Both the position numbers and the translations under genes were made by a program. Shown here piece after piece: positions 42,453 to 62,240 of a stretch of DNA of 62,460 bases. Within the stretch, counting starts at the first letter, position 1. Every line of letters begins with the position of its first letter. Source of the DNA: Acidobacteriota bacterium (GTDB lineage: Bacteria; Acidobacteriota; Terriglobia; Terriglobales; Acidobacteriaceae); assembly GCA_021779935.1 (NCBI GenBank), contig JAJXZT010000064.1, forward strand, positions 1-62,460, in the 5' to 3' direction. The notes under the pieces are model-generated. The model was not told the DNA's origin. It ran no database searches and saw only the letters and a list, made by a program, of their open reading frames with translations.

Positions 42453-43330
42453 TGGGCGCTTCCTTTCGGATGCCAGCGCTTGACGATGGCGACAAGCAGG
42501 GAATGGAAGCCAACCATTCCAAAGAAAGCGGTGAGAAAGAGCACGATGCCGGAGAGGAGATGATCGATGCCGGTGATGGCGATCTTTCCCCAGTACTGGG
42601 CGGCGACAGCGTCAAAGACGACGCGTGCGGCATTGCTGATGACGGCGATGGGAGCCACGGCGGCACAGAGCACGACACGAATCCAGACGCGAGTCTCGCC
42701 AAAGTATCCATAAATGATGGTGAGCGCGAAGAGCGAAAGCAGGGAGCGAATGCCGCTGCAGGCTTCGGCAACTTCAAGACTCACGTTGGGCAGCACAAGG
42801 ATGTTGCCTTCACGAATGACGGGGACAAGATGCGTGATCTGGAGAGTGGCGGTGGCAACCTTGGAGGCGAAGACCTGGAGTGGCAGGACAACCTGGTTGT
42901 AGATGATCGTCGGAATCGGGATCATCAGCAGCAGGGTCGCGACCGGTGCGGCAAGTGCGCGCGCCATGTTCCATCCGCCGAGAAACACGATGAGACCGAA
43001 GATGACGATGAGCAGGGAAACGCGCGCCAGAAACAACTCGGCGCCAACGAGTCCGAGGGCAAGGACGCAGAGACCGAGGAGGAGAATGGGAATTCCCCAC
43101 CAGGAGGGCTTGACGGGGATCTCAAGCAGACGCTTGCGGCGCTCCCAGACGAGAAACGCGGCAAAGAAGGGAATGAGGAATCCGTGAGAGTAATTGGCGT
43201 CGTCCCACCACTGCTCCACGAGCCGCGTAAGAACGGGGATGTACAGGCAGATGACGGCGATGGCAAGTAATGCCAATCGCCACAGATACGATCTGTCTTC
43301 CCGGCGTATTTGTGGAGACGAGGTGGACAT
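42449..43330 (-). CDS. xrtA: Exosortase (EpsH/XrtA-like)
   Basis: 293 aa (a GTG five codons upstream, 43345, is equally possible). About eight membrane helices. The catalytic Cys is in EVAEACSGIRSLLSLFALT, the Arg in ISNAARVVFDAVAAQYW and the His in ITGIDHLLSGIVLFL; these make up the Cys-Arg-His set of the family. It cleaves PEP-CTERM sorting signals, with two likely substrates encoded at 37,784-39,311. The type letter (A) is inferred from the EPS neighbours. Ends with ATGA overlap into epsI. Confidence 0.92.
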   Translation of the reverse strand: MSTSSPQIRREDRSYLWRLALLAIAVICLYIPVLTRLVEQWWDDANYSHGFLIPFFAAFLVWERRKRLLEIPVKPSWWGIPILLLGLCVLALGLVGAELFLARVSLLIVIFGLIVFLGGWNMARALAAPVATLLLMIPIPTIIYNQVVLPLQVFASKVATATLQITHLVPVIREGNILVLPNVSLEVAEACSGIRSLLSLFALTIIYGYFGETRVWIRVVLCAAVAPIAVISNAARVVFDAVAAQYWGKIAITGIDHLLSGIVLFLTAFFGMVGFHSLLVAIVKRWHPKGSAQ

Positions 43331-43345
43331 GCGAACTGGGGTCAC

Positions 43346-43726
43346 ACAACGGACGTGTTATGCAGAGAATTATGGCATGAAGGCCGCGTAGAGCGTTGAG
43401 GAATGTGCAGTTCCCGGGAAGATACGGGGGAGGTTACAAGTGTTGGAATTACTTGGAACCATTCCGGGAGCCGAAGAAGCGTAATGGAAAACGGCACTTT
43501 TGGGAGGAAATTTTGTGTCGGGGAAAGCAGGTGCCAAGAAAGATGACCGACCGGGAAGTTTCGCCAAAAAGATGTGCAAAAGATCAGCGGGTCGAATAGC
43601 CTCTATACAACTCCCGGGTAACCATGAAACCGGATTTGGTGAATGAAGTGGCATGCAAGGCGACGGCCGAGCAGGAGTTTGCATGCCCAAGAAGACCCGA
43701 CATTGCAGGCACTGAATGACCCAGAT
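43346..43726. other. Divergent gap between exosortase and hydrolase gene
   Basis: About 380 bases with promoters for both sides expected but no clear -10/-35 or operator. Longer open frames on the plus strand here lack ribosome sites. Confidence 0.45.
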
Positions 43727-47073: not shown

Positions 47074-48642
47074 TCAGGCGCGCGAGCCAAAGACGATTGA
47101 TGTCAACTTCTGCATTCCGGCCAGGAGGCGCCCTCGCTCCTCGCCCTTCATGGCGAATAGGTACGCCAGCGCTCCAAAGACAACCGACTGCCAGGCGACG
47201 GAGAGGAAGAGTCGCGGGAAACTGACGACAGTTTGCGTTGAGCGGAACAACCAGCACACGGCGAGGAAGATGGCAGCGGCGATGAATGGGCCGAGCATGG
47301 CTTCGCGGAGATATCGTCGCGGGCTAATGCCGGAAGCTCTTAGCGTGTACCAGGGCTGGACGAAGATCTGCACGACGAGCATTGGGATGGTGGTGCCGAG
47401 AGCGATGCCGATAAGTCCGTAGCGACGAGCGAGGATGACGCTGAGGATGAGATTGGCGAGACCTTCGGCAAGCGTCCACCAGCCGCGCGGCTGATGGCTG
47501 TGCTTGGCCATGAGAAGATCGACAGAAGGATGCTGCGCGAGAGTGATGCAGTATCCGACGATGAGGACGACGAGAAGCAGGTAGGATTCGGGATATCCGT
47601 GGCCCACCCAAAGCGTGATGATGTGCCTTCCGTTTACGAGCAGAATCAGTCCCACATAAAAGCTGAGGATCGAAGTGAGGCGCGTGGCATGGAGGAAATA
47701 GCTGCGCAGGTCCTCTTCGTTGCCCTTGCCCTGGAGTTCACTCATGACGCCGGAGAGGGGGCTGGCAAGCGAGAGAAGCAACTGGCGCATGAGCACCATG
47801 AGGCGTCCGGCGATGTTGAATGGCGTGATGAGCGCGATGGCGAGGACGCGGCCGATGACGATGTTATCGACGAAGAAGCGGAGGTGGTCGCCGATGTTGC
47901 CGAGGAAGGCGTAGACGCTGAAGGAGAGCAGCTCCTTGACGCGCGCGCGCTCGGCGAGCGAGGGACGTAATGAGACCTCGGGGTCGGAGCGGTGGACCAG
48001 GTAGAGATTGAGGAGGAAGGAAAGAACAGTAGCTCCGAAAGTGATAGCGCCAACGGCGATAACGCCGTAGTGGAGCCGAAGCACAAGAATGATGAGACCT
48101 GCACGAAGCAGCCCACTGAGGATGACCGTGAAATTGAAGAGGTCGAAACGGCGGCAGGCGCAGAGATAAGTTCCGAGGAACTGCGCGGGAAACGCAAACG
48201 CGACACCGGTGCCGAGCATGGCCACGAGCCAGCGGAAGATATGGCGAGAACTTCCTTCTACATTGAAGAAGCCGGGAAGAAATGCGACAGACACGACGGT
48301 GAGCAGGAATACAATCGCGGCGGTGGTGAGCGCGATGATGAAACCGGAAGCGAGCGTGGCATTGAGTTCGCGGCGCTGGTTGGCGCCTTTATAGACGGCG
48401 ACGAAGCGGAAGAGCGCGTTGCGAACACCGAAGTCGAGCAGGCCGTAGGAGTCGAGAAGGGTGGCGGCGAGCACCCACATGCCGTAATAGAGATCGCCAA
48501 GGCCGTGAATGAGGATGGGGGTGAGGATGAGAGAGATGGAGGCGCTGACGAAGAGCCCGACCCAGTTGGACAGGACGCTGCGCAAGGGTGATGCCTGTTC
48601 CTGAGCGCGCGCCGGATTTGCGGATGCGAGAGAGTCAGGCAT
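47074..48642 (-). CDS. Polysaccharide flippase (Wzx-like)
   Basis: 522 aa from ATG 48642 (just past the preceding GT stop). About 12-14 membrane helices, beginning SNWVGLFVSASISLILTPIL then GLGDLYYGMWVLAATLLDSY and FGVRNALFRFVAVYKGANQR. The Arg- and Gly-rich loops are typical of oligosaccharide exporters. It moves the lipid-linked repeat unit to the periplasm, ready for the Wzy-like polymerase. Last gene of the long minus-strand run. Confidence 0.9.
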   Translation of the reverse strand: MPDSLASANPARAQEQASPLRSVLSNWVGLFVSASISLILTPILIHGLGDLYYGMWVLAATLLDSYGLLDFGVRNALFRFVAVYKGANQRRELNATLASGFIIALTTAAIVFLLTVVSVAFLPGFFNVEGSSRHIFRWLVAMLGTGVAFAFPAQFLGTYLCACRRFDLFNFTVILSGLLRAGLIILVLRLHYGVIAVGAITFGATVLSFLLNLYLVHRSDPEVSLRPSLAERARVKELLSFSVYAFLGNIGDHLRFFVDNIVIGRVLAIALITPFNIAGRLMVLMRQLLLSLASPLSGVMSELQGKGNEEDLRSYFLHATRLTSILSFYVGLILLVNGRHIITLWVGHGYPESYLLLVVLIVGYCITLAQHPSVDLLMAKHSHQPRGWWTLAEGLANLILSVILARRYGLIGIALGTTIPMLVVQIFVQPWYTLRASGISPRRYLREAMLGPFIAAAIFLAVCWLFRSTQTVVSFPRLFLSVAWQSVVFGALAYLFAMKGEERGRLLAGMQKLTSIVFGSRA

Positions 48643-48655
48643 GAAGGTCAGTATT

Positions 48656-49771
48656 CTAAATGTGTTGCGCGCGAGACGGATATTGCGACTGCCGTTCGCG
48701 GACGGCAGCCTCGACGGTATCGTAAACGGTCTGAAAGAAAATTTCGCGCGAAAAACGGGCAGACATGTTTTTCGCATTCGCGGCGAGGCGAGCCGTATAT
48801 TCCGGATCGCGGAAGATGTGGTCGATTGCTTGGCGCAAGGCCTGGCTGTCGCCCGGGGGAACGAGGATTCCATTCACTCCATGATCGATGTAGTGCCGGA
48901 ACTCCTGAGGCGCAGCCACCACCAAGGGTTTGCCCAGAGAGAGAGCATTGGCAATTACAGTATGGCCGGAAGTGTGGATACATTCCGAGAATAGCGACAG
49001 AACAACCACCTTGGCTGCGGCCATGAGTTCGTCGAAGCGCTCGGGCGTCACCTTGGAGACGGAGATGTGAGGCGGCAGTTCCCCGCCTTCGCTGATTTTC
49101 CAGGGCGAACAGATGACCGCGGGATAGGGAGCGTCCATGATGGCACGCAACAAGGTGGGATAGTCGCGGCCTTCAAATCCGCCGGAGAAGAGATAGCCAC
49201 CGTCCTTGACTTCCGGGCGTGGCGTACGGAGATTGTCGTGGTAAATGACGAACTGAAAAAGGTCACGGCGGGTGCGCAGTTCGCGGGCAAAGCGCTCGGC
49301 TTCCTCCGGGCTGGCGTGGGCGAAGATGCGATAGATGGAGCGCGACTCAATCGACATCTGGATGCGCTTCAGGAAGATGGTGAGCTTTCCGGGTGAAGCC
49401 GCCCAGGGAAAGTCGATCATGACGTGAGGGACGCGACGGCGACGGGTACGGAGAAGAGACTGGAGAATCGCGAAGAGGTGGCCTGTGTGTTCGGAGCCGG
49501 TGACAACCGCATCGTAGCGCGGGCTGAGGCGAAAGAGTTGCCACGCCCAGCGAAGGCTGTCCAGAACACCAAAGTCAAAGGGAGCAATCTCCTTGTGGGC
49601 TTCGTACCAGCCGGGAAGCAAAGTGGTGCGCGCGGTCCAGGCTGGATGGAAGTTCTTGTTGTGCGTAGTGAGAATGCGGGGTAATGGGGCGGATGCTCCG
49701 GGAGGTGAGTCGGGCGCACCGGCGCTGACCTTGGCGCCACCTTCGATCGCGGAATGAGTATCTTCCGTCAT
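48656..49771 (-). CDS. Glycosyltransferase, GT-B fold
   Basis: 371 aa. C-terminal GT-B blocks: VSKVTPERFDELMAAAKVVV, SECIHTSGHTVIANALSLGK and AAPQEFRHYIDHGVNGILVP, which cover the acceptor-recognition and NDP-binding segments. N-terminal part has VVTGSEHTGHLFAIL. Family 1/4-type retaining enzyme. Overlaps the polymerase gene by ATGA and precedes the flippase by 13 bases. Confidence 0.88.
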   Translation of the reverse strand: MTEDTHSAIEGGAKVSAGAPDSPPGASAPLPRILTTHNKNFHPAWTARTTLLPGWYEAHKEIAPFDFGVLDSLRWAWQLFRLSPRYDAVVTGSEHTGHLFAILQSLLRTRRRRVPHVMIDFPWAASPGKLTIFLKRIQMSIESRSIYRIFAHASPEEAERFARELRTRRDLFQFVIYHDNLRTPRPEVKDGGYLFSGGFEGRDYPTLLRAIMDAPYPAVICSPWKISEGGELPPHISVSKVTPERFDELMAAAKVVVLSLFSECIHTSGHTVIANALSLGKPLVVAAPQEFRHYIDHGVNGILVPPGDSQALRQAIDHIFRDPEYTARLAANAKNMSARFSREIFFQTVYDTVEAAVRERQSQYPSRAQHI

Positions 49772-51045
49772 GCCACGGACACCGGTTCGACTTCAGGAAC
49801 ACTCTGCGGGAGATCAAGCTCCCGCTCGGCGAGGCTGGGCTCGGGCGGAGCTTCGCCTTCCGTGGCGGGGGGCTTGGGCTTGCGGATCAGGCCGGGCAGA
49901 CATGTAGAGAGGAAGATGGAGAACCAGAATATCTTGGAGTGGAGCGCGGAGATGAACATGATACAGACGAGAAATCCGGGTATTCCGTTGCGCAGGGCCG
50001 AGGCAACGGCATAGGTGAAAACATCGCCGGCTTTTTTCGCCGCACGCCGAGTTTTCTTGAGACTGCGAAAAGTTCCATAGAGCATGGCGAGGAATATGGA
50101 AAGACCAACGAAGCCGAGCTCGACAGCGATCTGAATGTAGGTGTTGTGAGGAACGTAGAAGTTCAGATCCTGACCGGGCGCATAGAGCTCAAGGTAATGA
50201 TGGAATTTGCCGATGCCGGCGCCGAGGACGGGATACTCGTCGATCACGCGTCCGGCGACGCGCCACATCTCAAGCCGCGAATCAGAGGATTCCTTGTCGC
50301 TGTAGTTGGGGTGAAGGAGACGGTCCAGCGGCGAAGCGGGCGAAATCAGCACGGCAAGCACAATGACGGCAGAAAGGCCAATAAAAGCCTTGCGATGAGT
50401 TGAGTCGCGCGCCTGGAGAACGAGAACCGCAATCATTCCCAGCAGACCGCCGCGAGACTGACCGATGAGAATGGCGCCAATGGTAAGCAGCAGGCAACTC
50501 ATACAGAAATAGCGCGGCAGTTTCCGCTTGAGATTGATGATGAAGTAAAGATTTAGCGGCAGGACGACAAGCGCGCCGGCAGTGAAGAAATTAGGATCGC
50601 CCACGACGTACCCGGCGCGGTAATCGATTCCATAACTGCCGATGTTTCCGGCCCACTCGCGGAGAAGATACGCGGCGCCAAAGCCGACGGCGCCGATGTA
50701 CGCCAGGCAGCAGTAATAAAGACGCTTTTGCGAGTCAATGGTGATCTGGCTGACGAAGAAGAAAAAGAATTGCGAGATGAGAATGGAGATCAGGCCCTGG
50801 AAGGCAAGGTCCTTCGCGGTGACAAGATAAGAAGACAGAACGAGGATGACGAAGGCGATAAACATTTTCGCCTGGAAGGTGCGAAGGAAGCGCGGTGTAC
50901 CCTTGCGCGTGGGGAAGTACCAGATGGCATAAAAGATGGCGCCGAAGCCAATCCATTTCTCGACGGTGAACGGACCAAGCTGACGACCGAAGTGAGGATC
51001 GGCCACGAGTGCCATCGAGAAGATGAGGATATAGACGATTATCAT
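49768..51045 (-). CDS. O-antigen polymerase/ligase-like (Wzy) membrane protein
   Basis: 425 aa, about 10-12 helices. The Wzy_C region has IGQSRGGLLGMIAVL and later VPHNTYIQIAVELGFVGLSI, which is the hallmark of O-antigen ligases and polymerases. The large periplasmic loop carries DRLLHPNYSDKESSDSRLEM (about 240-260). Polymerises repeat units after flipping. The C-terminus is cytosolic and Pro/Glu-rich. Upstream gap of 63 bases to the GT gene. Confidence 0.9.
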   Translation of the reverse strand: MIIVYILIFSMALVADPHFGRQLGPFTVEKWIGFGAIFYAIWYFPTRKGTPRFLRTFQAKMFIAFVILVLSSYLVTAKDLAFQGLISILISQFFFFFVSQITIDSQKRLYYCCLAYIGAVGFGAAYLLREWAGNIGSYGIDYRAGYVVGDPNFFTAGALVVLPLNLYFIINLKRKLPRYFCMSCLLLTIGAILIGQSRGGLLGMIAVLVLQARDSTHRKAFIGLSAVIVLAVLISPASPLDRLLHPNYSDKESSDSRLEMWRVAGRVIDEYPVLGAGIGKFHHYLELYAPGQDLNFYVPHNTYIQIAVELGFVGLSIFLAMLYGTFRSLKKTRRAAKKAGDVFTYAVASALRNGIPGFLVCIMFISALHSKIFWFSIFLSTCLPGLIRKPKPPATEGEAPPEPSLAERELDLPQSVPEVEPVSVA

Positions 51046-51108: not shown

Positions 51109-52347
51109 CTAAGAAACGGCCTGGTGCCGCCGCGAGTCAACAGAATTTCCATTGCCGGATGGGACGAACTCCAAAAGGCAGCGATGCAGCGACCTTCGGA
51201 GCGCCTGAATACTGTATTCCTGCGCGGCTCGAGCACGGGCCGCTTTGCCCATCGACTCCCGACGCCCGGGGCTGGCCAGAAGAGCGGCCGTAACGCGAGC
51301 GAACTCCACGGGAGCATCGGTGATTTCAATGTCGGCGCCATTCACGAAGTTAAGCCCCTCGGCGCCAATGGACGTGGAGACAACGGGCCGCTCCATGGCG
51401 GCTGCCTCCATGATTTTAAGACGAGTGCCGCTGCCAATGCGAAGCGGAACGATGGAGACAGCGGCGGCGGAGATCTGTGTGCGCATGTCCGCGACTTCGC
51501 CGGTAAAGACGACATCGGGCGCCTGGAGTTCACGCTGGAAGTCCGGCGGAAGGGCACGGCCCGCGACGACGAGACGGACACCGGGAGACAGTTTGCGCAG
51601 CTCCGGAAGAATTTCAGCGACGAAGTAACGCACGGCATCGCGATTGGGCAACCAGTCCATGGCGCCGACGTAAAGAACCGTGTGCCCGTCATTTGTCGCA
51701 ACGGGTGAATAAGAATCTACGTCGATGACGTTGGGAACGACGGCAAAACCGGCAGCGGGGCAGAGGCCGCGAAGCAGGTCGAGATCGCGCTGGGAACAGG
51801 CGAGCACGGCGCGGACACGGCGGCAAGCGTCGATCTCCCAGGCGCGTACGTTGCGAGCCTCGAAGGCGATATAGGCGCGCTTGAGCGGATTGGACTCGAA
51901 GCGGGCGTAGCGCTGCATGATCTCAAACGTGAGATCGTGCTTGTTCAGCAGGACGGGGAGACGGCACTCGCGCGGAAGATTGCCGAGCATGTAGACGTCG
52001 TCGCAGAAGATGGCGTCATACGCGTGCGCGGCGAGTTCACTGCGCAAGGCTCGCTGCATGGCGGCGCTTCGGAACTTGAGTACGCCGTAAGGGCGAGCGC
52101 GCAAGGCCGAGACGAGACGCGTCACGAGGGAGCGGACCGGTCCGGGCGAAGGAAGCGGTACGGGGATGACGCTTGGGCAGTATGGCGCGGCAAGCGAGAG
52201 ATGTTGGCGATCGGCGTCCGAGACGAAGGCGACGAGGGTGACGTTGTGGCCCTCCTGGGCGAGTGCGCGCACCAAGCTGCTGTTGCGCATGCGATTCCCG
52301 TTGCTTGCGGGAAACGGGAAGGCGAGAGATGTGAACAGTATGCGCAT
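51109..52347 (-). CDS. Glycosyltransferase, GT4-like
   Basis: 412 aa. GT-B fold with MRILFTSLAFPFPASNGNRM at the N-terminus; the C-terminal half has VLYVGAMDWLPNRDAVRYFV, PGVRLVVAGRALPPDFQREL, FTGEVADMRTQISAAAVSIV and GTRLKIMEAAAMERPVVSTS. Adds a sugar using an activated donor on the cytoplasmic face. 21 bases after the DUF362 gene. Confidence 0.92.
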   Translation of the reverse strand: MRILFTSLAFPFPASNGNRMRNSSLVRALAQEGHNVTLVAFVSDADRQHLSLAAPYCPSVIPVPLPSPGPVRSLVTRLVSALRARPYGVLKFRSAAMQRALRSELAAHAYDAIFCDDVYMLGNLPRECRLPVLLNKHDLTFEIMQRYARFESNPLKRAYIAFEARNVRAWEIDACRRVRAVLACSQRDLDLLRGLCPAAGFAVVPNVIDVDSYSPVATNDGHTVLYVGAMDWLPNRDAVRYFVAEILPELRKLSPGVRLVVAGRALPPDFQRELQAPDVVFTGEVADMRTQISAAAVSIVPLRIGSGTRLKIMEAAAMERPVVSTSIGAEGLNFVNGADIEITDAPVEFARVTAALLASPGRRESMGKAARARAAQEYSIQALRRSLHRCLLEFVPSGNGNSVDSRRHQAVS

Positions 52348-52368: not shown

Positions 52369-53361
52369 CTAGTCGCGACCCTCCACGATTCCAATGCGCC
52401 GGGCAACCTGCACGGCGGCGCGGATGGGATAGAAAACGTAATTCTTCTCCAGCATGTACTTCACGAACCAGCGGTAACGGCTCATGTAATCCATGGCGGC
52501 GATGGCCTTATCGAGGATGGCTGGCTTGAACTGGGTGCGATGCTTCTCCCAATCACCATCGACGGTGATGCGCTCGGCTTCCCAGTTGCCAAGGCCGAGC
52601 TGTGCTGTCAACTGGACGTGGCGGCAGAGTTCCGGATTGAGGCCGACGAGACGCATGGCGGTGGTGTCAACGGCGACAGAGTCGCGACCGGCGAGCAAGA
52701 GGTCAATGCGGCGCGGCTTGCCATTGGCAGGGCCACGGCCTTCCATGCCGATGATGCCATCCATGATGGAGATGCAGGGCTTGAAGATGCCGTGCATGGA
52801 GGCGAGCATGGGATCGAGGTAGCGATGATAAAGGATGCGGTCGTATTGCGGCAGACATCCCCACTGGTTCTTGATGGAGCCGGTGAAATAGGTGAGAGCG
52901 TGCGTTTTGAGCACGGGAAGAGTGATGAAGGCATGGCCCTGCATCATGATGTCCGGCAGCTTGACCTGATGAGCGGGGGCGACGTCGACGGCGGTCTGCG
53001 GAGACTCGCTGAGGTTCATCAGTTCGACACCAAGGCGCTTGGCGATGGGAAGGTAACCGGATTCCTCGAAGGCCTGCCACGCGGTCTGGCGAAGACCGTC
53101 AGACTCGACGAGATAGATCTTGCGAGTGCGCGTGAGCAGAACTTCGCAGACTGCTTCCGCGATGCGCGGGTCCGTGTTGGACATTTCGCACTTGCCGGGT
53201 ACGGCGGTGCAGAGGTTTGGCTTGATGACGACGGTGGAGTCGGGCGCGACAAGGCTCTTCCAGTCACAGAACTCCATGCATTCGGCGACGACGCTGCGGA
53301 GCGTATTGTCGGAAACGCCGCGAAGAATTACACGGCTGACGTTGTTTTCAGATTGCTGCAC
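52369..53361 (-). CDS. DUF362 protein
   Basis: 330 aa. Contains DUF362 landmarks: STVVIKPNLCTAVPGKCEMS, IYLVESDGLRQTAWQAFEES, FITLPVLKTHALTYFTGSIK and KNQWGCLP. No ferredoxin domain follows, unlike many family members. The role of DUF362 proteins is unknown; some are linked to polysaccharide or envelope loci. Its start lies 34 bases inside the methyltransferase gene, so translation is coupled. Confidence 0.9.
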   Translation of the reverse strand: MQQSENNVSRVILRGVSDNTLRSVVAECMEFCDWKSLVAPDSTVVIKPNLCTAVPGKCEMSNTDPRIAEAVCEVLLTRTRKIYLVESDGLRQTAWQAFEESGYLPIAKRLGVELMNLSESPQTAVDVAPAHQVKLPDIMMQGHAFITLPVLKTHALTYFTGSIKNQWGCLPQYDRILYHRYLDPMLASMHGIFKPCISIMDGIIGMEGRGPANGKPRRIDLLLAGRDSVAVDTTAMRLVGLNPELCRHVQLTAQLGLGNWEAERITVDGDWEKHRTQFKPAILDKAIAAMDYMSRYRWFVKYMLEKNYVFYPIRAAVQVARRIGIVEGRD

Positions 53362-54221
53362 GGTACACCACCTTCGATCGCACGGGTTGCTACGACGAGT
53401 AAATTTTTCCGGAAAATATCGCCGGCCGGGAGACGCTCAAAACAATCTCCGCCAAGCCGCATGAGAAACAGGAGAACCGTCCAGGCAAGGTGAATGGGCG
53501 GCTTGAACTTGTCGAACGTCGAGCCTTCACGGAACGCCCACGTGGCTTCATAGGTGTGGGCCTGCGCCGGCCGGTTACGCTGACGCGCTCGGCGGAAAAC
53601 GTGAAGCGGCTTCTCATGAAGATAACGGTAGAGCAGGCTGGCCCAGGGGCGCAGCCGCAGGAAGTCTATGCGAATGTCGACAAAGCCAGCGTCGGAGAGA
53701 GCGGAGAAAAGTTCATCACGCGATTGGAAAAACGTAACGCCTGCGCCGGGAACGTTGGGATACTGGAGATACAACTGGCCGCCGGGATAGAGCAGAGCCG
53801 CCATGTTTTGCAACGCGACACGCGGGTTGGGGACGTACTCGAAAACCTCAACGGCTTCGATGGCGTCAAAGCGCATGCCAATATCGTCAACCACGCGCGG
53901 ATCGGAAATGTCTCCGGCAAGCAGACGAATGTTGGCGACAGAAGCAAAGACCGGCCGCAGACGTGCAATATTGGGCTCGGCGACATCGACAGTGGTGAGA
54001 TGGCGGACCAGGCGGGCGAGCTGGATCGTTGGGAAACCGCTTCCAGGGCCGATTTCGAGAAGGTTCATCTCCGTGGAAAACTCGGCGAACTGGTAAAGAA
54101 TTTCGTCGCGGATGGGAAGGTCGGTGAGCGGAGCCCTCCATAGATCAGAGACACGCCAACGGGGACGAGTGCCGGTGCAGCCTCGAATTGCCATCCTCTG
54201 TTCCACGCTGGTCCCCATCAT
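53328..54221 (-). CDS. SAM-dependent methyltransferase, class I
   Basis: 297 aa from ATG 54221 (ATGA overlap with the upstream gene). The SAM site is NLLEIGPGSGFPTIQLARLV (motif I), with VDVAEPNIARLRPVFASV, DISDPRVVDDIG and FDAIEAVEVFEYVPNPRVAL as motifs II-III. The C-terminal third (RRARQRNRPAQAHTYEATWA, then TFDKFKPPIHLAWTVLLFLM) is unusually hydrophobic near the end, which may anchor it at the membrane. Likely methylates a sugar or a lipid-linked intermediate. Confidence 0.85.
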   Translation of the reverse strand: MMGTSVEQRMAIRGCTGTRPRWRVSDLWRAPLTDLPIRDEILYQFAEFSTEMNLLEIGPGSGFPTIQLARLVRHLTTVDVAEPNIARLRPVFASVANIRLLAGDISDPRVVDDIGMRFDAIEAVEVFEYVPNPRVALQNMAALLYPGGQLYLQYPNVPGAGVTFFQSRDELFSALSDAGFVDIRIDFLRLRPWASLLYRYLHEKPLHVFRRARQRNRPAQAHTYEATWAFREGSTFDKFKPPIHLAWTVLLFLMRLGGDCFERLPAGDIFRKNLLVVATRAIEGGVPCSNLKTTSAV

Positions 54222-55408
54222 GCGCGCGTCTCCACCGTGAAGCGCCTGTAGTTCCACACGATATCATCGGCGAGGTCATTCCACGAAGCTTCGTGGATCC
54301 GCGGAGATGAAACCGGCAACAAGTGTTCCACATTTCGAGCGAGTTCCTGTGTGGGTGCGGAGTCCGCGGGTAATTGACAGAACAATAAGTGTGCCGCTTC
54401 ATAGATGCAATAGCGAGGCGTCCCACGGGTAAACAACGTGAGCCAGTGAGTCCAATGCCGCCAGCTCTCATGCCAACCTTCGGCGCGCACAGCGTACATC
54501 CAGCCACGCAAGGTCATGACGGTAGATAACTGGCGGCAGAGATGGCGAAAGAGAACGTCGTCAGCCCCCGAGGCGCCGGTAAGATGACGAAGCTCCCACG
54601 TCCAGAGAAGACGCGCGTGGTCGACGGCGTCGCGGCAAAGAGTAGCGGGGAGGTTGAGACCTTCCGGCGAGAGTTTGAAGGCCGTGCATTGCGCGATGCG
54701 CGCGGCGAACTCGATGGCGGGAAACGGGAGGCGTGAAGGCTCGCGTGCGGCAAGCTGTACAAGACGCGTCGACCGCCCCTGGTACGTGGGCTCGTATTCA
54801 CCGAGGAAGACGAGCAGCGAGGTCGCCATGTCGAGAAACAGCTTTATGGCGCGATACTGCGTCTCCGGTGAGGGAGTGTCACTCCCGATATCGCCAGCAC
54901 TTCCGAGGAATTCCGTCATGCGATTGGCGAGCAGCCGCCACGCATCTTCGCGCGAGAGTTCGGAAACTGCGTATTGCGGGACGGATGCCAGGATTGTCGC
55001 GTCGCCGGCAATCACCAGTCCGTGCGAGCGCAGTTCGTAGGTGAAGATGTGCGGCGGGAGGAGGGCAAGATACCCCGGCTGCACCAGGGCAAGGCTGACA
55101 TGGATGCGGAGCCCAAGGCGCGCAAGAGCGACTTCAACCCGGCCAGTCAACTGTGGCTGCAAGGACTGCGCCGCATGCGAATGGACGACGACGAGGAACT
55201 CCGCATCGCTGAGAAAGCGGAGACCGGAACCATCGTCAAGGATGCTGGCTTCGTCGCGGGCAAGGCTGCCGGTGAGGATGAGAGCGACGAGATCGGAGCC
55301 GAGAAACGCCTGACATTCCTCGCGTACCGCGGCACAGATCGACATGCGCAAATGCATGCGGATTGCGTGGTGTGGCGGTAACGAGTTGTCGATCCCAGTC
55401 ATATTCAT
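54218..55408 (-). CDS. Nucleotidyltransferase-like protein
   Basis: 396 aa. Near the N-terminus is a MNT/polymerase-beta-type site: LVALILTGSLARDEAS, with GSxxRxE, and further on RFLSDAEFLVVVHS with the acidic pair (DAE). A long all-helical remainder (from about 150, REDAWRLLANRMTEFLGSAG) includes a large domain without known motif. No family recognised beyond the fold. It sits between GT4 and methyltransferase, so it may modify a sugar precursor or an assembly protein. 9 bases from the stop of the upstream gene. Confidence 0.6.
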   Translation of the reverse strand: MNMTGIDNSLPPHHAIRMHLRMSICAAVREECQAFLGSDLVALILTGSLARDEASILDDGSGLRFLSDAEFLVVVHSHAAQSLQPQLTGRVEVALARLGLRIHVSLALVQPGYLALLPPHIFTYELRSHGLVIAGDATILASVPQYAVSELSREDAWRLLANRMTEFLGSAGDIGSDTPSPETQYRAIKLFLDMATSLLVFLGEYEPTYQGRSTRLVQLAAREPSRLPFPAIEFAARIAQCTAFKLSPEGLNLPATLCRDAVDHARLLWTWELRHLTGASGADDVLFRHLCRQLSTVMTLRGWMYAVRAEGWHESWRHWTHWLTLFTRGTPRYCIYEAAHLLFCQLPADSAPTQELARNVEHLLPVSSPRIHEASWNDLADDIVWNYRRFTVETRA

Positions 55409-55417
55409 GCGTCCGTG

Positions 55418-56620
55418 TCAGATGCCTTCCGCCATCCGTGGCAGCGGCGCCGCATCGGTTTGCGGGATTGGCGTTCCGGTGCGTGCCTGCCAGAGACGGA
55501 GGTAAAGGGTTTCAATCTGTTCGACCATTCGCTCGATGGAAAAGCTGCGCTCGACCAGTTCACGGCCCTGCCGTGCGAACGTCGCGCGGAGTTCGGGGTC
55601 GTGCAGGAGGCGAGCGATGGCATGGGTGAGCGCGGTCGAATCTCGCGAAGGGACGGTCAGTCCGGTGACGCCATCGACGACGATTTCCGGCGTGCCGTCG
55701 ACGGCGGTGGCAACCATGGGTTTCTCCGACGCGAAAGCTTCAATCGCCGTGATCGGAAGTCCTTCGAAGAGCGATGGAAGGACCACGATGTCGGCAAGGG
55801 CGTACCAGCGGGCCATGTCGCGCTGATAGCCGACGAAACGCACGGCATCCGCAACGCCGAGATCGCGCGCATGATGCTGGAGCTCCGAGATGAGCGAGCC
55901 TTCGCCAACACAGAACAACAGGACACCCGGGAACTCGACGCGAATCGATGGCATCGCGTCGAGAAGGTAACGATGGCCCTTCTGCGGTTCCAGGCGTCCG
56001 GCAACAAGAAGAACGGGTTGCGATGGCGAGATGCCAAGTTCGCGGCGAAGCGCCTGGCCGGCGGACTGCTGCCGCGTGAACGGGCGGAGATCGGCGCCGC
56101 AGGGAATGACGGAAATCTTGTTCGCGGGCAGACGCTTCTCGTCGACGAGATAGCGCTTGTTGGCCTGGGAGACGGCGATATAGCCGGAAACGAAATGCCC
56201 AGCGATTCGATCGACAGCGTAGTTCGCCTTCCAGCCGGCACGCCAGTATTCGCGAATGTGCGGCGTCTCGACCGTGACGGGGATGCCGGACAGGCTGGCA
56301 GTGGGCGAAGCGACGAGGCTGGCGCGGAACTGATGGGAGTGGACGATCTGCACGCGACGGTCGCGGAGGAAATGCGAGAAGCGGCGCAGCTCGCCAAACT
56401 GGGTCGGACGGGCGATGTGGACAGGGAAGACGTTGACATCCGGCGGAATGTCGGGCGTTAATAAATCGATAAGTGACGATGGACAGGCAAGGCTGGGACG
56501 AAAGCGCTGGCGGTCGAGGCGCTGCAATACCCCGAGCATGTATTCCTCGGCGCCGGCACGGGTCGTGGAGTTGGCGAAGTGGCAGACTTCAAGCGGAAAA
56601 GCATTTGACGCAGTTGTCAC
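55418..56620 (-). CDS. Glycosyltransferase, GT4-like
   Basis: 400 aa from GTG 56620, whose GTGA overlaps the upstream stop. GT-B fold: NSTTRAGAEEYMLGVLQRLD, VQIVHSHQFRASLVASPTAS, SVIPCGADLRPFTRQQSAGQ, VLLVAGRLEPQKGHRYLLDA and SLFEGLPITAIEAFASEKPM, VPSRDSTALTHAIARLLHDP. Longer open frame upstream is rejected. Adds a sugar to the lipid-linked chain. Confidence 0.93.
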   Translation of the reverse strand: MTTASNAFPLEVCHFANSTTRAGAEEYMLGVLQRLDRQRFRPSLACPSSLIDLLTPDIPPDVNVFPVHIARPTQFGELRRFSHFLRDRRVQIVHSHQFRASLVASPTASLSGIPVTVETPHIREYWRAGWKANYAVDRIAGHFVSGYIAVSQANKRYLVDEKRLPANKISVIPCGADLRPFTRQQSAGQALRRELGISPSQPVLLVAGRLEPQKGHRYLLDAMPSIRVEFPGVLLFCVGEGSLISELQHHARDLGVADAVRFVGYQRDMARWYALADIVVLPSLFEGLPITAIEAFASEKPMVATAVDGTPEIVVDGVTGLTVPSRDSTALTHAIARLLHDPELRATFARQGRELVERSFSIERMVEQIETLYLRLWQARTGTPIPQTDAAPLPRMAEGI

Positions 56621-57765
56621 GAGATCGCCTCCCGCATGCAACGGTAAATATCTGTGACGATGGTGACGGGCGGCAGAATTTCGCGATTGGTGAGGAAGAC
56701 CCCGTAAGAGTGCTCGTCGTCCGGATGGTAGCCGTGCATGCCAACCGGCATCCAACTGGCGGAGTGGAAAGCGCTGCTGGCGATGAGGCAGCCGGGGTCC
56801 ATGAGAAAAATGATGTCGCCGTAGCGGTTGTCGGAGAACGAGAGCAGGAGTGATTTCAATTCGCCGTGCGAGAGGATGTGTCCGCAGGGAACCTGCTCCA
56901 ACTGGCGCGTGAGCGCGTCGCGAGCCGCGTCGGAGAAGCACCAGAAGCGCGCCATGGTGGAGTCATAAACGGCGAGGAAATCCTTTGGCGTGGAGAGCGA
57001 AGCGCGTTCGACATCGGCGGCGAGATCGTAGTGGCGCGTCACGGGCGTCATGCCGTGATCGGAGAAGAGGTAGAAGCAAGCCTCGGGATCGCGGCGCAGG
57101 GCAGCGTCAAAGACGTGGCGCAGTTGACGGTCATACCAGGCGAGGCGCTCGGCGATGCGCGCCGGATCGCTGCAGTGATCGTGCAGGAATTTGTCGACTT
57201 CGCTGAGATAGACGAAATAGAAATTCTCGTGGCCCTCGTCAATGTGGCGCGGCACGGCCTGGAGAATCTCCTCATCCGTGTTGCGATGGTAGCTGTAGGA
57301 GCGATAGGGAACGCCATCGGCGACGAGCTTGTCAAAGATGGACTGGACGCCAGGAATTCCACCGGGATCGTAGATGTTGCGCCGCTCGGCCCAGTTGAAA
57401 TAGTGGAGGAGGCGCGGGCTGACGCAGCAGTCGAATCCGTGGCCGAGACCGAGAACGCGTCGGCCGAGTTCAGTGAAGGCGCGTCGCGCGTAACGGTTGT
57501 CGAGCAGCGGTCGCGGAACAGATTGGAAGTGACGCATCCAGCGAAAGGGCGAATGCTCGGGATCGTAATAGACGAGATTCCAGACGGCGCTCTCGGCGGG
57601 CGTGAGGCCGGTGAGGATCGACGGAATGACCCCGGAGCTGAAGCCGAGGATGGTTCGCAAGGGCTGGCGATAAGGGAGGACGTCGTCAAGAAACGGCGTC
57701 TGCTGGAGGAACTTCCATCCAAGCGCGTCGATGAGCACGAAGACGTGAAGCCTGTCCGATGTCAT
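56617..57765 (-). CDS. Alkaline-phosphatase-like phosphodiesterase
   Basis: 382 aa from ATG 57765. PF01663-like: LHVFVLIDALGWKFLQQTPF, SSGVIPSILTGLTPAESAVW (nucleophile Ser/Thr region), VYLSEVDKFLHDH and YLFSDHGMTPVTRHYDL as metal-binding blocks. No signal peptide is evident, so it may be cytosolic, in contrast to most secreted members. Embedded between deacetylase and GT4; role in the polysaccharide pathway is unknown. ATGA overlap upstream and GTGA overlap downstream. Confidence 0.8.
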   Translation of the reverse strand: MTSDRLHVFVLIDALGWKFLQQTPFLDDVLPYRQPLRTILGFSSGVIPSILTGLTPAESAVWNLVYYDPEHSPFRWMRHFQSVPRPLLDNRYARRAFTELGRRVLGLGHGFDCCVSPRLLHYFNWAERRNIYDPGGIPGVQSIFDKLVADGVPYRSYSYHRNTDEEILQAVPRHIDEGHENFYFVYLSEVDKFLHDHCSDPARIAERLAWYDRQLRHVFDAALRRDPEACFYLFSDHGMTPVTRHYDLAADVERASLSTPKDFLAVYDSTMARFWCFSDAARDALTRQLEQVPCGHILSHGELKSLLLSFSDNRYGDIIFLMDPGCLIASSAFHSASWMPVGMHGYHPDDEHSYGVFLTNREILPPVTIVTDIYRCMREAIS

Positions 57766-58556
57766 GCGGGCTCCTTGTTCGCGCGTGCTCCAAGCAACGA
57801 CGGCGCAAAACGCAGAACCAATTGCTTGAATGGATAAAGTGAGACGTTGCGAGCCATGTGACGCGAATAGATGAATGGATCGCCATCGAGGATGCGATCG
57901 AATTCGACAAGAGTGGTGTTTTGTCCGACGGCAATGCGATGAATGAGCGGCACTCCCGCGGTGGCCGGCCATGGACGCGAAGTGCAAAAGATTTCGAACC
58001 CGGCTTCGCGGGCGATGTCCAGCGAGAACCGGTTATACGAACCGTAAGGAAACGCGAGACACTTTGCGGGACGGCCAAGGCGATCTTCAAGGATGGTGCG
58101 CGACTGCGTGAGTTCGCTGAGGAGAAGCGCGCGCGGAAGATGCGAGAGGTAGTAGTGGCGATGTCCGTGGGAGTGAAAGGACATGCCGGCGCGCTGCATC
58201 TCCACGACCTGAGCCCATGACAGGTAGCCGGACGTGCCGACCAGCGCAGTGCAGAGAAAGAAATCGGCGGACATACCCGCTGCAAGGAGCCTCGGAAAAG
58301 CCTGCTCATAGACGGAGAGGAGACCATCGTCGAAGGTGATGCCAACGCGTGGAGTACCGGAAGCCTGCGATGCAGCAAATGTCTCGACGGAGACCTGCGC
58401 GAAACCGCGCTGGCGGATGCGGGCGAGGAACGACGAGAACCGATCGGACTCCACTGCGTATCGATCGGATTCCGCACCAACTCCATGAAACATCAGGAAG
58501 GGCGTTCCGCGCAGAGCAAAGCGGCGAGAAGGCTGGGCTAGCTGACGCGTTGCCAT
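57762..58556 (-). CDS. Polysaccharide deacetylase (NodB domain)
   Basis: 264 aa from ATG 58556 with AAGGAGG upstream. NodB blocks: TPFLMFHGVG, VGITFDDGLLSVYEQAFPRL (Asp pair), SFHSHGHRHYYLSHLPRALL (zinc His pair) and CLAFPYGSYNRFSLDIAREA. No signal peptide, so it probably acts on a cytosolic or membrane-linked intermediate. Overlaps the GT2 gene end by 19 bases. Confidence 0.92.
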   Translation of the reverse strand: MATRQLAQPSRRFALRGTPFLMFHGVGAESDRYAVESDRFSSFLARIRQRGFAQVSVETFAASQASGTPRVGITFDDGLLSVYEQAFPRLLAAGMSADFFLCTALVGTSGYLSWAQVVEMQRAGMSFHSHGHRHYYLSHLPRALLLSELTQSRTILEDRLGRPAKCLAFPYGSYNRFSLDIAREAGFEIFCTSRPWPATAGVPLIHRIAVGQNTTLVEFDRILDGDPFIYSRHMARNVSLYPFKQLVLRFAPSLLGARANKEPA

Positions 58557-59716
58557 GTTGCCTCCTTCCCGGAAGTGAGAGCCTGCACGAGTCCGACGAG
58601 GAAAGCGAAGTTCATCGCGACGAGGAAGTATCCAAGAGAAATAAAAGGCACTCCGCGCAGGCGGTCGCGCCAGGCGTAACCTGCGGCGGCCCACAAATAA
58701 AGGACGGCCTGCACGGTGAGCGCAAGGCGATAGTGCGGCTCGGTAAGCAGAGCAATGTTGCTGAGCAGAAGCGCGATGGCAAAGACCGGAACGAACCAGC
58801 GCAGAACCTTGTGGGAAAAGAAGGCGAAGAGTGTTGCGCCGGGAAGCCGTATTTTCGCAAGGCTGCCAAGCGCGCGGAAGCTGCCGGTGGCGATACGGAC
58901 GCGGCGGCGGAATTCGCCGGAGACATCGCTGGCGGCGAAATCAGTGGCGCGAGCCTCGGGATCGTAGAGCACGGCAAGCCCGTGACGGCGAACGTTCATG
59001 GTAGCGACAAAATCATCGATGAGCGTGCCGGGCGGAAACGGATCGAGTGCATCGCGACGGATGGCATAGATGGCGCCGCTGGGCGTGAGCGTGGCACCAA
59101 GCCGTGCTTCCATCAGGCGCAGAATAGTTTCGTATTTCCAATAGACGCCTTCCGTTCGCTGCGATTCGCCGCTGGCTTCAAAACGAAGCGCGCCGCAGAC
59201 CGCTCCAATGTTGGGGTTGCGGAAGTGACGGACGAGCTTGCGGATGGCATCGGGATCGAAGAGCGTGCTGGCGTCGGTGAGAACGATGATGCCGTGACGC
59301 ACCTGCTGCAATCCCAGGTTGAGGGCCGATGTCTTGCCGGAGCGTTGCTCGGGAAAGATGACGCAGACATTCGGATCGGTGACGGAGCGAAGGATTGCGT
59401 TGGTGGCGTCAGTGGAGCCGTCTGAAACGATGACGACCTGGAGCTTGTCCGGCGGATAAGAGAGCGTGCGGGTGTTTTCCAGCTTGCGCTCGATATATCG
59501 CTCTTCATTGTAAGCGGCGAAGAGAAGCGTAACCGGTGGAAGTTCGTCGTCGCTCCGGTCGCCAGTCCGGCGGTCGGCGGGGGAGACGAGATGCTGGAAG
59601 TCGCGGCGAACCTGGGCGAATCCGTAGAGCACAAAGAGGATGACGGGATAACCGAGATAGGTGTAAACGATCGCCGCGAAGGACGCCCAAAAGACGCATT
59701 GCAGCACGGTTATCAT
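58538..59716 (-). CDS. Membrane GT2 glycosyltransferase
   Basis: 392 aa. N-terminal TM (VFWASFAAIVYTYLGYPVIL), GT2 domain: PPVTLLFAAYNEERYIERKL, VVIVSDGSTDATNAIL, GIIVLTDASTLFDPDAIRKL, and the QRTEGVYWKYE block. C-terminal TM helices (about 280-390) include LVPVFAIALLL-like and GYFLVAMNFAFLVGLVQAL. Resembles processive enzymes of the BcsA/IcaA type. Next to a deacetylase, as in poly-GlcNAc loci. ATGA overlap with the sugar-transferase gene. Confidence 0.9.
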   Translation of the reverse strand: MITVLQCVFWASFAAIVYTYLGYPVILFVLYGFAQVRRDFQHLVSPADRRTGDRSDDELPPVTLLFAAYNEERYIERKLENTRTLSYPPDKLQVVIVSDGSTDATNAILRSVTDPNVCVIFPEQRSGKTSALNLGLQQVRHGIIVLTDASTLFDPDAIRKLVRHFRNPNIGAVCGALRFEASGESQRTEGVYWKYETILRLMEARLGATLTPSGAIYAIRRDALDPFPPGTLIDDFVATMNVRRHGLAVLYDPEARATDFAASDVSGEFRRRVRIATGSFRALGSLAKIRLPGATLFAFFSHKVLRWFVPVFAIALLLSNIALLTEPHYRLALTVQAVLYLWAAAGYAWRDRLRGVPFISLGYFLVAMNFAFLVGLVQALTSGKEATWQRVS

Positions 59717-61098
59717 GCAGGGCTCCGGCTCAACAGCATCTTGGCGGTTCGTACCACGACAAGCATGTCGAGACCCAGAGACATGTGCTTGATATAGAAG
59801 AGGTCATAGGCGAGCTTGTCGGCGTTATCGGCAAGCGTTTCGCAATAGCCGCGATTGACCTGGGCCCATCCGGTGAGACCCGGAGGAATGGCCCAGCGCT
59901 GGCGGTAGAAGGGGATGGCGCGGACGCAGTCCTCTTCCTGGTTGGGTACGAACGGGCGGGGACCGACGAGTTCCATGTCACCGCGCAGGACATTCCAGAG
60001 CTGCGGCAGTTCATCGAGACGGCGGGTTCGAATCCAGCGCCCTACACGAGTAATGCGTTCGTCCTGCTGAGAGGCGGGCCGATGAATGGGTGCGTTCTCG
60101 CTGCCCTGGTACATGGAGCGAAACTTGTGAACAGTGAAAATCCTGCCGAGCTTTCCCACCCTGCGCTGATTGAGCAGGATGGGCCCTTCGGAATCGAGGC
60201 GGATGGCGATGGCGACCAGCAGCATGACGGGAAGCGCGATCACCAGGATGGTGAGAGCAACCAGAAAAGACGCAACCCGCTTCATGATGGGGTAAAAACG
60301 CGAGGGCTGGAATTCGGGGGAAAAAAGAATCGCGCTGGGGCGCAGCGTGGAGAGATCAATCTTGCCGGTAAGTGTTTCGTAGAGATCGTGGCCGTTCTGA
60401 ATGAAGATTCCCTGACGCTTGAGCTCGAGGAGCGAATCGAAGGGAAGCTTGCCGCGACGGTCTCCGAGAGCGACGATGACTTTGCGAACGCGCAACTGCT
60501 CAACGATTCGGGCAAGTTCATCGGAGAAGTCCCCGGACTGAAAACTCTTCGGGGATGGATCTCCGGGCTGGGTCTCCGGGATGTGACGGACAACTTCCAG
60601 GTTCAGCTCGGGGTGGTTGCGCATCTCCTGGAGAAGAAACTCCGCCAGAGCGCCGCTGCCGAGGAGGAGAACCCGTTCGCGAAACATCGGCCAGGTGCTG
60701 ACGAAGAGTTCGCGCCAAAGGATTAGAAACAGGCCAGCGGCAAGAGTACCAATAATAAAGACGTAGCGGTTCAGCCGGACGGAAGGGAAGATGGCATAGA
60801 GGGCCGCCACGATGAAACACATGGAGGCAAGAACCTGTACGAGCCGGGTAAAAGTTTCACGACCGCTATGCAGGATGAGCGGGTCATAGAGGTCGAAGTA
60901 GTACATACACACCGCGATGGTGGCGATGACCAGCAGTACCTTGAGCGCACCCTGTTGATAGCTGAGGGCAATGATCGTATTCAGCAGGCCGTGAAAGGCC
61001 ACCATGGCGATGAGGAAAGCCGATGTCGCCAGGAGGATTTCCGAAGCGCCGAGGAAGAGAAGGCGAGCCGGAAGATAGGCGTGCTGGGACCGGATCAC
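59713..61098 (-). CDS. Polyprenyl-phosphate sugar phosphotransferase (EpsB2-like)
   Basis: 461 aa from GTG 61098 (GTGA overlap with cpsD). N-terminal part has about five membrane helices, then a CoA-binding-like region (about 130-240: RERVLLLGSGALAEFLLQEM, RVRKVIVALGDRRGKLPFDS). The bacterial sugar transferase domain (about 270-461) has RVASFLVALTILVIALPVML, DSEGPILLNQRRVGKLGRIF, KFRSM and the GLTGWAQVNRG block. It starts synthesis by moving a sugar phosphate to undecaprenyl phosphate. Length and neighbours fit the XrtA-associated type. Confidence 0.93.
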   Translation of the reverse strand: MIRSQHAYLPARLLFLGASEILLATSAFLIAMVAFHGLLNTIIALSYQQGALKVLLVIATIAVCMYYFDLYDPLILHSGRETFTRLVQVLASMCFIVAALYAIFPSVRLNRYVFIIGTLAAGLFLILWRELFVSTWPMFRERVLLLGSGALAEFLLQEMRNHPELNLEVVRHIPETQPGDPSPKSFQSGDFSDELARIVEQLRVRKVIVALGDRRGKLPFDSLLELKRQGIFIQNGHDLYETLTGKIDLSTLRPSAILFSPEFQPSRFYPIMKRVASFLVALTILVIALPVMLLVAIAIRLDSEGPILLNQRRVGKLGRIFTVHKFRSMYQGSENAPIHRPASQQDERITRVGRWIRTRRLDELPQLWNVLRGDMELVGPRPFVPNQEEDCVRAIPFYRQRWAIPPGLTGWAQVNRGYCETLADNADKLAYDLFYIKHMSLGLDMLVVVRTAKMLLSRSPA

Positions 61099-62240
61099 TT
61101 CCTTTCCTTTCGTGGTTTCTTTTCTGGACCTTTTGCCTTTGCGGCTGGTTCCTTGGGCGGTTCCTTGGGCCTGGTGGAGTAATACTGGTCGTAGTAGTCG
61201 ACACGGTCGAAGTCGTCGGCGTCATTGAGCACGACACCCACAAGTTTGGGAGCGTCCATGCTCTCCATGGCGCGCTGCAGTGCGCGGCGCGGTGCAACTC
61301 CCTCGCGAATGACGAGCAGCGTGCCGTCGACGAGTCGCGCCCAGAGGTTCGAATCCGCCATGGGCAACAGGGGCGGAGTATCGACGATGACCCAGTCGAA
61401 CCAGATGCGGAACTGCGCCATCAGATCGTTCATGCGTCCCGATTGCAGAACGGAGACGGGATGAGGCGTGGTACCGGCCGGCAGCAGACATAGCTGCGTA
61501 TTGTTGATTCGGCGCAGGAAGGGAATGATGGAGGCATCCGCCTGGTTCCACCACTCGCCGATGCCGTTCGTCGATGTCAATCCGAGGACGGGGCAGACGG
61601 CCGGCTTGCGGAGGTCGCCCTCGACCAGCAGGACGGATTGCCCAGAACGGCGGGCCAGTGTAGCCGCGAGATTGGTGGAGACGAGGGTCTTGCCTTCACC
61701 GATGATGCTGCTGGTGATCTGAATGACCTGCAAGCCGGTGTTGCGCCGGATGTTTGCAAGGCGGGTGGCGAGTACGCGAAACTTTTCGGCGCCCAGACCG
61801 TGTTCATCGGTCATCGAGACCAGGTGGCCGTCGTCGGGCGGAAGAGCGTTTACGGAAATCAACTGGTCAAGATCGAATCCGCCTGGGTGCGATGAACCAT
61901 AAACCGGCGAGGGCGCTGCAGCCGGTTTCGAAGTTACATGCGGTGCAGGACTGGTGGCGGCCCGAACGACGGGAGGAGAAGCCGGCGGCGGAGGTTCGGG
62001 AGGAAGTTGCTCGTGGGCGGCGGGTGACGAGAGGGGCACGGGCGGCGGCAGGAAAGACGACGTCGCTGGTTCCATCGGACCAAAGTCGAGGTCCGGGAGC
62101 GGGGGCAATTCGGGTACGACCACATCCTGCGGAGCCGGAGAAGCCGCGTCCTTCGGCGTATCCTTCGGCGCGTCGGGCTTGGTCTTACCCTTGCGAGCGT
62201 CCTCGTCGAACTGACGCAATGCGTCAAAAACCCGGCTCAT
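61095..62240 (-). CDS. CpsD/CapB-like tyrosine kinase (BY-kinase)
   Basis: 381 aa. A disordered Pro/Ala-rich first third (about 15-125) precedes the kinase part. Walker A is SSIIGEGKTLVSTNLA, Walker A' is LLVEGDLRKP (usually VDxD; here the first Asp is Glu) and Walker B is FDWVIVDTPPLLPMADS. The C-terminus has a tyrosine cluster YYDQYY followed by a Lys/Pro-rich tail, the autophosphorylation region of BY-kinases. It controls chain length with a Wzz-type partner, which is not in the window but would be expected beyond the right edge. ATGA overlap with the ATPase gene. Confidence 0.9.
   Translation of the reverse strand: MSRVFDALRQFDEDARKGKTKPDAPKDTPKDAASPAPQDVVVPELPPLPDLDFGPMEPATSSFLPPPVPLSSPAAHEQLPPEPPPPASPPVVRAATSPAPHVTSKPAAAPSPVYGSSHPGGFDLDQLISVNALPPDDGHLVSMTDEHGLGAEKFRVLATRLANIRRNTGLQVIQITSSIIGEGKTLVSTNLAATLARRSGQSVLLVEGDLRKPAVCPVLGLTSTNGIGEWWNQADASIIPFLRRINNTQLCLLPAGTTPHPVSVLQSGRMNDLMAQFRIWFDWVIVDTPPLLPMADSNLWARLVDGTLLVIREGVAPRRALQRAMESMDAPKLVGVVLNDADDFDRVDYYDQYYSTRPKEPPKEPAAKAKGPEKKPRKERK

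Follow-up and report, generated by a model that had tools for sequence, protein, structure and literature searches.

Nucleotidylation is known on aminoglycosides, and reversible nucleotidylation is known on proteins. For AadA, a sugar-hydroxyl adenylyltransferase, Asp47, Asp49 and Glu87 were described as Mg-binding, Arg192 and Lys205 as ATP-binding and Glu87 as the base (PMC6065190, PMC4631478). Snake venom phosphodiesterase was described to hydrolyze AMP-O-Tyr phosphodiesters, and this enzyme provided the earliest evidence that glutamine synthetase is adenylylated (PMC3612183, PMC12409994). Scytonemin producers have a satellite cluster of five genes (NpF5232-5236), one of which is annotated as "type I phosphodiesterase" and none of which is named as a nucleotidyltransferase (PMC2726228). 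Here, a 62,460-nucleotide stretch of DNA from an Acidobacteriota bacterium (assembly GCA_021779935.1, contig JAJXZT010000064.1), referred to as the window, was analyzed. It carries an exopolysaccharide operon that encodes both a nucleotidyltransferase-like protein (NT) and a phosphodiesterase (PDE) related to the nucleotide pyrophosphatases/phosphodiesterases (NPPs).

The genes for NT and PDE were found to be linked far above chance. We tentatively propose that the two proteins work as a writer-eraser pair on an intermediate of the glycan while the exopolysaccharide is being assembled in the cytosol, a reading that is regarded as possible rather than probable. Loci of this type are already known, and so are the NPP fold and the AadA-like fold. 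The NT-PDE pairing in polysaccharide loci was not described among the open-access (CC-licensed PMC) matches listed, which is weak evidence for its novelty, and a new glycan modification is a realistic prospect.

The pair is part of four coupled genes at 54218-58556, all on the minus strand, with an exosortase gene downstream:

57762-58556, minus strand: deacetylase without signal peptide (PF01522)
56617-57765, minus strand: PDE, putatively cytosolic NPP-like phosphodiesterase (PF01663)
55418-56620, minus strand: GT4 glycosyltransferase, the usual gene between PDE and NT (TIGR03088-like, below the cut-off)
54218-55408, minus strand: NT, AadA/AAD(9)-like nucleotidyltransferase according to its predicted model (no family match)

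This placement among glycosyltransferase genes agrees with a preliminary description of the window, which had been made from the sequence alone. The tight coupling by ATGA and GTGA given there was found for the deacetylase/PDE overlap (ATGA) and the PDE/GT4 overlap (GTGA), whereas a 9-nt gap lies between GT4 and NT. NT and the following methyltransferase gene share one base (TGATG).

Co-occurrence of the two proteins, which had been suggested as a check, was observed in all three genome samples. The Fisher p-values given in parentheses ignore shared ancestry. NT and PDE were found in the identical 14 of the 100 nearest relatives, with 19 copies each and equal copy number per genome (2e-17); in 250 genomes of the class, NT was found in 14, PDE in 13 and both in 11 (6e-15), and for another class of the phylum, represented by 147 genomes, the numbers were 4, 3 and 3, respectively (8e-6). 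The E-value cut-offs for NT were 1e-5 (relatives), 1e-4 (class) and 1e-8 (second class), and those for PDE were 1e-10, 1e-10 and 1e-25. The second class was searched with its own NT and PDE proteins, and two of its NT genes are truncated by the end of a contig. There is overlap between the relatives sample and the class sample; the genome of the window is the only pair-bearing one in both. Many named records in the samples are metagenome-assembled genomes (MAGs). The class genomes with NT only are G229 and G168, the contigs of which start just upstream of NT, and G164, while in the two with PDE only the contigs stop in or just past GT4. Outside the class, NT was weakly matched in 1 of 296 other genomes of the phylum (E 2.3e-9), where 6 candidates were scored per genome and some may be missed; this match proved to belong to a genuine locus of the second class (L091). 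G299, G301, G303, G305 and G308 each carry two matches to NT and two to PDE, which suggests two such polymer loci per genome. The NT gene of G164 (L092, G164:C46, 2109-3449) lies on a 13-kb contig among genes for an FGGY kinase, a histidine kinase and STAS proteins, with no polysaccharide locus around it within the limits of that contig.

For the analysis of gene distances, NT copies with more than 3 kb of upstream sequence were considered assessable, a limit chosen after the table had been seen; 5 of 39 copies were too near a contig edge. In 32 of the 34 assessable copies (window included), PDE was located at most 6 kb away on the same strand, mostly one gene off. NT and PDE are thus not placed at random but are grouped in polysaccharide loci, and one of these 34 NT copies is clearly outside such a locus. 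Genes other than GT4 were found between PDE and NT as well, namely for an Acetyltransf_6 protein in L032, an amidohydrolase in L037, where NT precedes PDE, and a GT2 glycosyltransferase in the second class. It is unlikely that GT4 alone accounts for the linkage, given the different intervening genes in L032 and L037. In L041 (8655-10973; G061, one MAG), PDE and NT are fused in a single open reading frame (ORF) of 772 amino acids with the PDE domain first. The fusion and the one-to-one pairing suggest that both proteins share one substrate.

The PDE protein matches PF01663 with 51.8 bits (Pfam cut-off 23), and in a profile comparison the Xanthomonas NPP was matched with an E-value of 1.3e-7. 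The predicted model has a pLDDT of 92.6, and the alignment to NPPs covers nearly the whole chain. The highest VIA Z score was obtained for ENPP6 (Z 28.4, root-mean-square deviation (rmsd) 2.9, 316 residues), followed by ENPP4-AMP (28.2, 2.8, 311), the Xanthomonas NPP 2gsn (27.3, 3.1, 317) and the snake venom PDE 5gz5 (26.7, 3.2, 320), whose AMP-bound form is also close; Z differences under or near 1 are ties, and ENPP6 is tied with ENPP4 and others. The metal-ligand positions D13, D191, H195, D236, H237 and H344 are unvarying in all 35 sequences compared (copies G303:C200 and G308:C387 were left out). The nucleophile position S43 is Ser in 34 of 35 sequences and the phosphate-binding Asn63 is present in 31, with Ser or Thr in the other four. 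These roles were assigned from the Xanthomonas NPP, and the nucleophile of the known NPPs is Thr. PDE is a likely cytosolic relative of the NPPs with the predicted active-site residues retained. It shares with the Xanthomonas NPP, the ENPPs and snake venom PDE the fold, the metal ligands, the nucleophile position and Asn63, and differs in that no signal peptide was seen in the PDE of the window, in the Ser nucleophile and in being bound to one gene partner.

The maximal 19-residue Kyte-Doolittle mean starting within the first 27 residues is 1.1 for PDE, 1.0 for NT and 0.35 for the deacetylase. PDE is likely cytosolic because its N-terminus is not strongly hydrophobic and the first beta strand of the predicted model (7-12) already runs into the metal ligand D13. 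NT and the deacetylase, judged by hydropathy alone, are likely located in the cytosol, too. This is in line with the earlier view of a cytosolic alkaline-phosphatase-like protein, now assigned as an NPP-like phosphodiesterase, and of a deacetylase without signal peptide.

A different outcome of the same chemistry would be a net phosphorylation, where NT adds a nucleoside monophosphate to a sugar, PDE releases the nucleoside and the sugar phosphate stays in the polymer; this would correspond to the phosphorylated sugar of the preliminary description. The pairing and the fold data fit this, and ENPP6, tied as it is with ENPP4 and others, is a choline-specific glycerophosphodiesterase. However, NPPs usually release the nucleoside monophosphate and a kinase would be the simpler solution. 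A net phosphorylation is considered quite unlikely.

The relationship of NT was accessible through its predicted structure. Searches of Pfam at an E-value of 0.01 and of NCBIfam assigned no family, 13 NT proteins searched against Pfam at E-values up to 5 yielded nothing relevant, and an NT profile compared with the PDB sequences gave no useful match (best E 0.15, an antibody; a nucleotidyltransferase at 1.1). No sequence match was found to the AadA families PF13427 and PF01909, the former of which was found in 7 of the 250 class genomes. The predicted model (pLDDT 90.8) consists of a nucleotidyltransferase (NTase) domain (approximately residues 16-137), a HEPN-like helical domain (approximately 150-280) and an additional helical C-terminus. 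The first Foldseek match was AAD(9) with an E-value of 2.5e-4. The VIA Z score was 13.3 for AAD(9) with ATP and spectinomycin (6xxq; rmsd 3.5, 214 residues) and 12.9 for AadA (5g4a; rmsd 4.3, 224 residues), values near the warning level of the tool for chance helical matches; the match covers both domains, and the bottom ribosomal rows have a Z of about 7. As modeled, the NT fold resembles that of the sugar-hydroxyl adenylyltransferases AadA and AAD(9), with which it shares the two-domain architecture and interdomain cleft, a Ser/Gly loop, the Mg-binding acid pair and similarly placed basic residues in the helical domain. In contrast to them, NT has no significant sequence-family match, an unconserved likely base position and approximately 110 extra C-terminal residues, and it is encoded in polysaccharide operons. 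Since this fold is of the kind that adenylylates sugar hydroxyls and the class of PDE cleaves such bonds, the idea of a nucleotidylated sugar, raised in the preliminary description, becomes concrete.

Among the structural matches of NT there were also enzymes of protein-modifying kinds: the MNT antitoxin 8xeo (Z 10.4; rmsd 2.7 over 100 residues) and two GlnE domains, 1v4a (Z 9.9; rmsd 5.5 over 239 residues) and 3k7d (Z 9.2; rmsd 5.9 over 247 residues). They are consistent with a regulatory switch in which NT attaches AMP to one of the assembly-line proteins (the kinase, a glycosyltransferase or the polyprenyl glycosylphosphotransferase, PGT) and PDE strips off the AMP, thereby setting the polymer output. 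Snake venom PDE, which has the same fold as PDE, takes AMP off proteins, and the fusion of writer and eraser in L041 would fit too. Such a switch is nevertheless unlikely, as NT, compared over most of its length, is matched best by adenylyltransferases that act on small molecules.

The match list of NT further includes the Hailong-system protein HalB (9dbi; Z 10.6, rmsd 4.8, 200 residues) and the HalB-oligodeoxyadenylate structure 9dbh, and ENPP1 with 3'3'-cGAMP is among the Foldseek matches of PDE. A private nucleotide second messenger that is made by NT, destroyed by PDE and controls polymer synthesis could be derived from these similarities. This is very unlikely, given that no effector gene was recognized in the loci, for which no systematic effector search was made, and that PADLOC gave only one weak match of NT (PDC-S09, E 0.0026). 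A defense system was rejected, as PADLOC gave only this weak match for NT and none for PDE, the L091 NT and the L041 fusion. The identity of NT as a HEPN/MNT toxin-antitoxin protein was rejected. The motif R-x4-6-H, the conserved RNase motif of HEPN, is scattered over 19 of 39 NT sequences and missing in 20, and no printed offset is common to more than three rows.

The active site of NT was compared in 39 sequences, two of which are cut at contig ends. D68 and R212 are present in all of them, K189 in 38 and an Asp or Glu in position 70 also in 38, with Thr in L037. D68 and D/E70 would match the Mg-binding pair Asp47 and Asp49 of AadA, and together with K189 and R212 they are of the types that contact Mg and the ATP phosphates in that enzyme; NT probably binds Mg-NTP. 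The counterpart of Glu87 (strand beta 3 of AadA) is likely position 105 in strand 104-109, as derived from strand order and not from residue-level superposition. All 39 sequences have an acidic residue at E125 and at D155, which are candidates for a base or ribose-binder.

In the proposed writer-eraser mechanism, NT would bind Mg-NTP, probably ATP, between the NTase and the helical domain in the fashion of AadA and would move the nucleotidyl group onto an acceptor that is made or used beside the step of the neighboring glycosyltransferase. The most likely acceptor would be a hydroxyl group on a sugar of the lipid-linked repeat unit. PDE, as an NPP-type two-metal enzyme with a Ser nucleophile, would cleave the phosphodiester made by NT, and the nucleotidyl group written and erased in this way could transiently block or control the assembly of the chain, or could serve for editing. 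With the eraser beside the writer, the modification may be transient or regulatory and never reach the polymer. The evidence consists of the gene linkage, one fusion, the predicted folds and the conserved residues of the metal and NTP sites, from which the nucleotide, the acceptor, the direction and the purpose of this chemistry are inferred. That the pair reversibly nucleotidylates, probably adenylylates, the growing polysaccharide precursor, which would represent an undescribed glycan modification or control, is rather doubtful, though a serious possibility. If true, a dedicated writer-eraser pair in polysaccharide assembly would add a new means of modifying, capping or regulating glycans.

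Several observations weigh against the writer-eraser reading. Position 105 of NT is acidic in only 13 of 39 sequences and Ser in the window, and an acid at 103 or 105 is found in 23 of 39 sequences, the window having neither; the four second-class sequences carry Asp at 103, two columns before 105. Because the likely Glu87-counterpart position is poorly conserved, hydroxyl transfer by NT is not certain on sequence grounds. The comparison of the NT profile with six PF13427 proteins was non-significant (E 0.073, probability 0.8%). In two of the 34 assessable NT copies, PDE is missing (L033, which is the copy outside a polysaccharide locus, and L104), and the L041 fusion has Cys at the nucleophile position of PDE. 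The pairwise distance correlation is 0.49 for NT and the middle GT4, 0.41 for NT and PDE and 0.62 for PDE and GT4, compared to 0.03-0.27 for NT and five other operon genes. These values support a module weakly, since other pairs of the operon reach similar ones (GT2 and second GT4 0.46, PGT and kinase 0.44, PDE and second GT4 0.43).

The poorly conserved position 105 would fit a phosphate acceptor, which requires no general base. NT could then use a sugar phosphate to make an unusual sugar or alcohol in nucleotide-activated form, and PDE could hydrolyze surplus or wrong product, as NPPs cleave pyrophosphates. However, known makers of NDP-sugars have another fold, and mere salvage would not need a strict one-to-one pairing. 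This explanation is considered improbable. The same position, together with the Thr that replaces Asp/Glu at 70 in L037, would be consistent with NT as a non-catalytic nucleotide-binding partner, PDE alone acting on a phosphodiester or pyrophosphate intermediate. The conservation of D68 and D/E70 argues for retained Mg-NTP chemistry, and a non-catalytic NT is likewise considered improbable.

The other features of the locus were assigned by family scans unless stated otherwise; the gene maps originate from a mechanical ORF picker, the starts of which are often too long:

61095-62240, minus strand: tyrosine autokinase domain (TIGR01007 above the cut-off, TIGR03018 below)
59713-61098, minus strand: PGT (TIGR03025 above the cut-off, TIGR03013 below)
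58538-59716, minus strand: GT2 glycosyltransferase
53328-54218, minus strand: S-adenosylmethionine (SAM) methyltransferase, optional neighbor
52369-53361, minus strand: DUF362 protein, optional neighbor (PF04015, 158 bits)
51109-52347, minus strand: second GT4 glycosyltransferase (TIGR03087-like, below the cut-off)
49768-51045, minus strand: Wzy/O-antigen ligase-like membrane protein (by sequence reading, no family scan)
47074-48873, minus strand: Wzx-like flippase (by sequence reading, no family scan)
42449-43345, minus strand: exosortase (TIGR02602 above the cut-off; best partial match XrtW)
41820-42452, minus strand: EpsI (TIGR02914 above the cut-off)

The operon-like run spans the genes from the tyrosine kinase (62240) to the flippase (47074), and the initial part of the flippase ORF overlaps the preceding gene and may be non-coding. 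Beyond the flippase, the exosortase, EpsI, a PrsT-type tetratricopeptide repeat (TPR) protein and two PEP-CTERM proteins (TIGR02595, 22.7 and 21.2 bits; cut-off 16) are encoded on the same strand. The exosortase stays below the cut-off of the XrtA subtype (TIGR03109, 189.3 bits; cut-off 208), XrtW being the best partial match (215.6; cut-off 425). The locus shares with XrtA/PEP-CTERM loci the PGT, the tyrosine kinase, the stp1/stp2-like GT4 proteins (below the cut-off), the exosortase, EpsI, PrsT and the PEP-CTERM proteins, and sister loci add FemAB and an XrtA deacetylase.

The common gene order was found to be kinase, PGT, GT2, deacetylase, PDE, GT4, NT, (methyltransferase), (DUF362), GT4 and Wzy. 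The methyltransferase and DUF362, which had been described as following in the block, do so in the window but are optional neighbors elsewhere: of 38 mapped loci, several of them short, 5 have this methyltransferase after NT and 7 contain DUF362. A deacetylase was found in 25 of 35 PDE loci, some of which are cut short, and was therefore rejected as a core member. Signal-less NodB-type deacetylases are known, and in other loci the XrtA-type deacetylase TIGR03006 occupies the place of the one in the window; both speak against the earlier statement that the deacetylase lacks any known role in exopolysaccharide synthesis.

An exosortase was present in all 14 pair-bearing relatives and in 44 of the 86 others (p 3e-4). 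Of the 58 relatives with an exosortase, 44 lack the NT-PDE pair, which is therefore an accessory module. In 9 of the 14 pair genomes, the exosortase gene is on the same contig within approximately 12 kb of an NT gene, and in 5 (G297, G303, G304, G307 and G308) it is on another contig, the pair of G297 lying well inside a 115-kb contig without exosortase. The pair thus accompanies certain polysaccharide loci as an accessory, and many of these loci, though not all, adjoin an exosortase. That it is a general part of polysaccharide synthesis was rejected, as TIGR03025 transferases were found in 96 of the 100 relatives.

In the four loci of the second class (L091, L104, L105 and L106), a gene for a GAF/SpoIIE/HATPase regulatory protein of about 716 amino acids was found a few kb from NT, and ManC- or GlmU-like nucleotidyl transferases are encoded nearby in L104 and L105. 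In the window, the PEP-CTERM pair is located at 37784-39311 beside the exosortase genes, and the protein encoded at 37784-38533 contains a long proline-rich stretch. Between the exosortase and the polysaccharide genes, an 822-amino-acid protein is encoded on the opposite strand (43643-46111, plus strand). It appears to be glycoside hydrolase-like by sequence reading, with no family scan, and has relatives in a number of sister loci.

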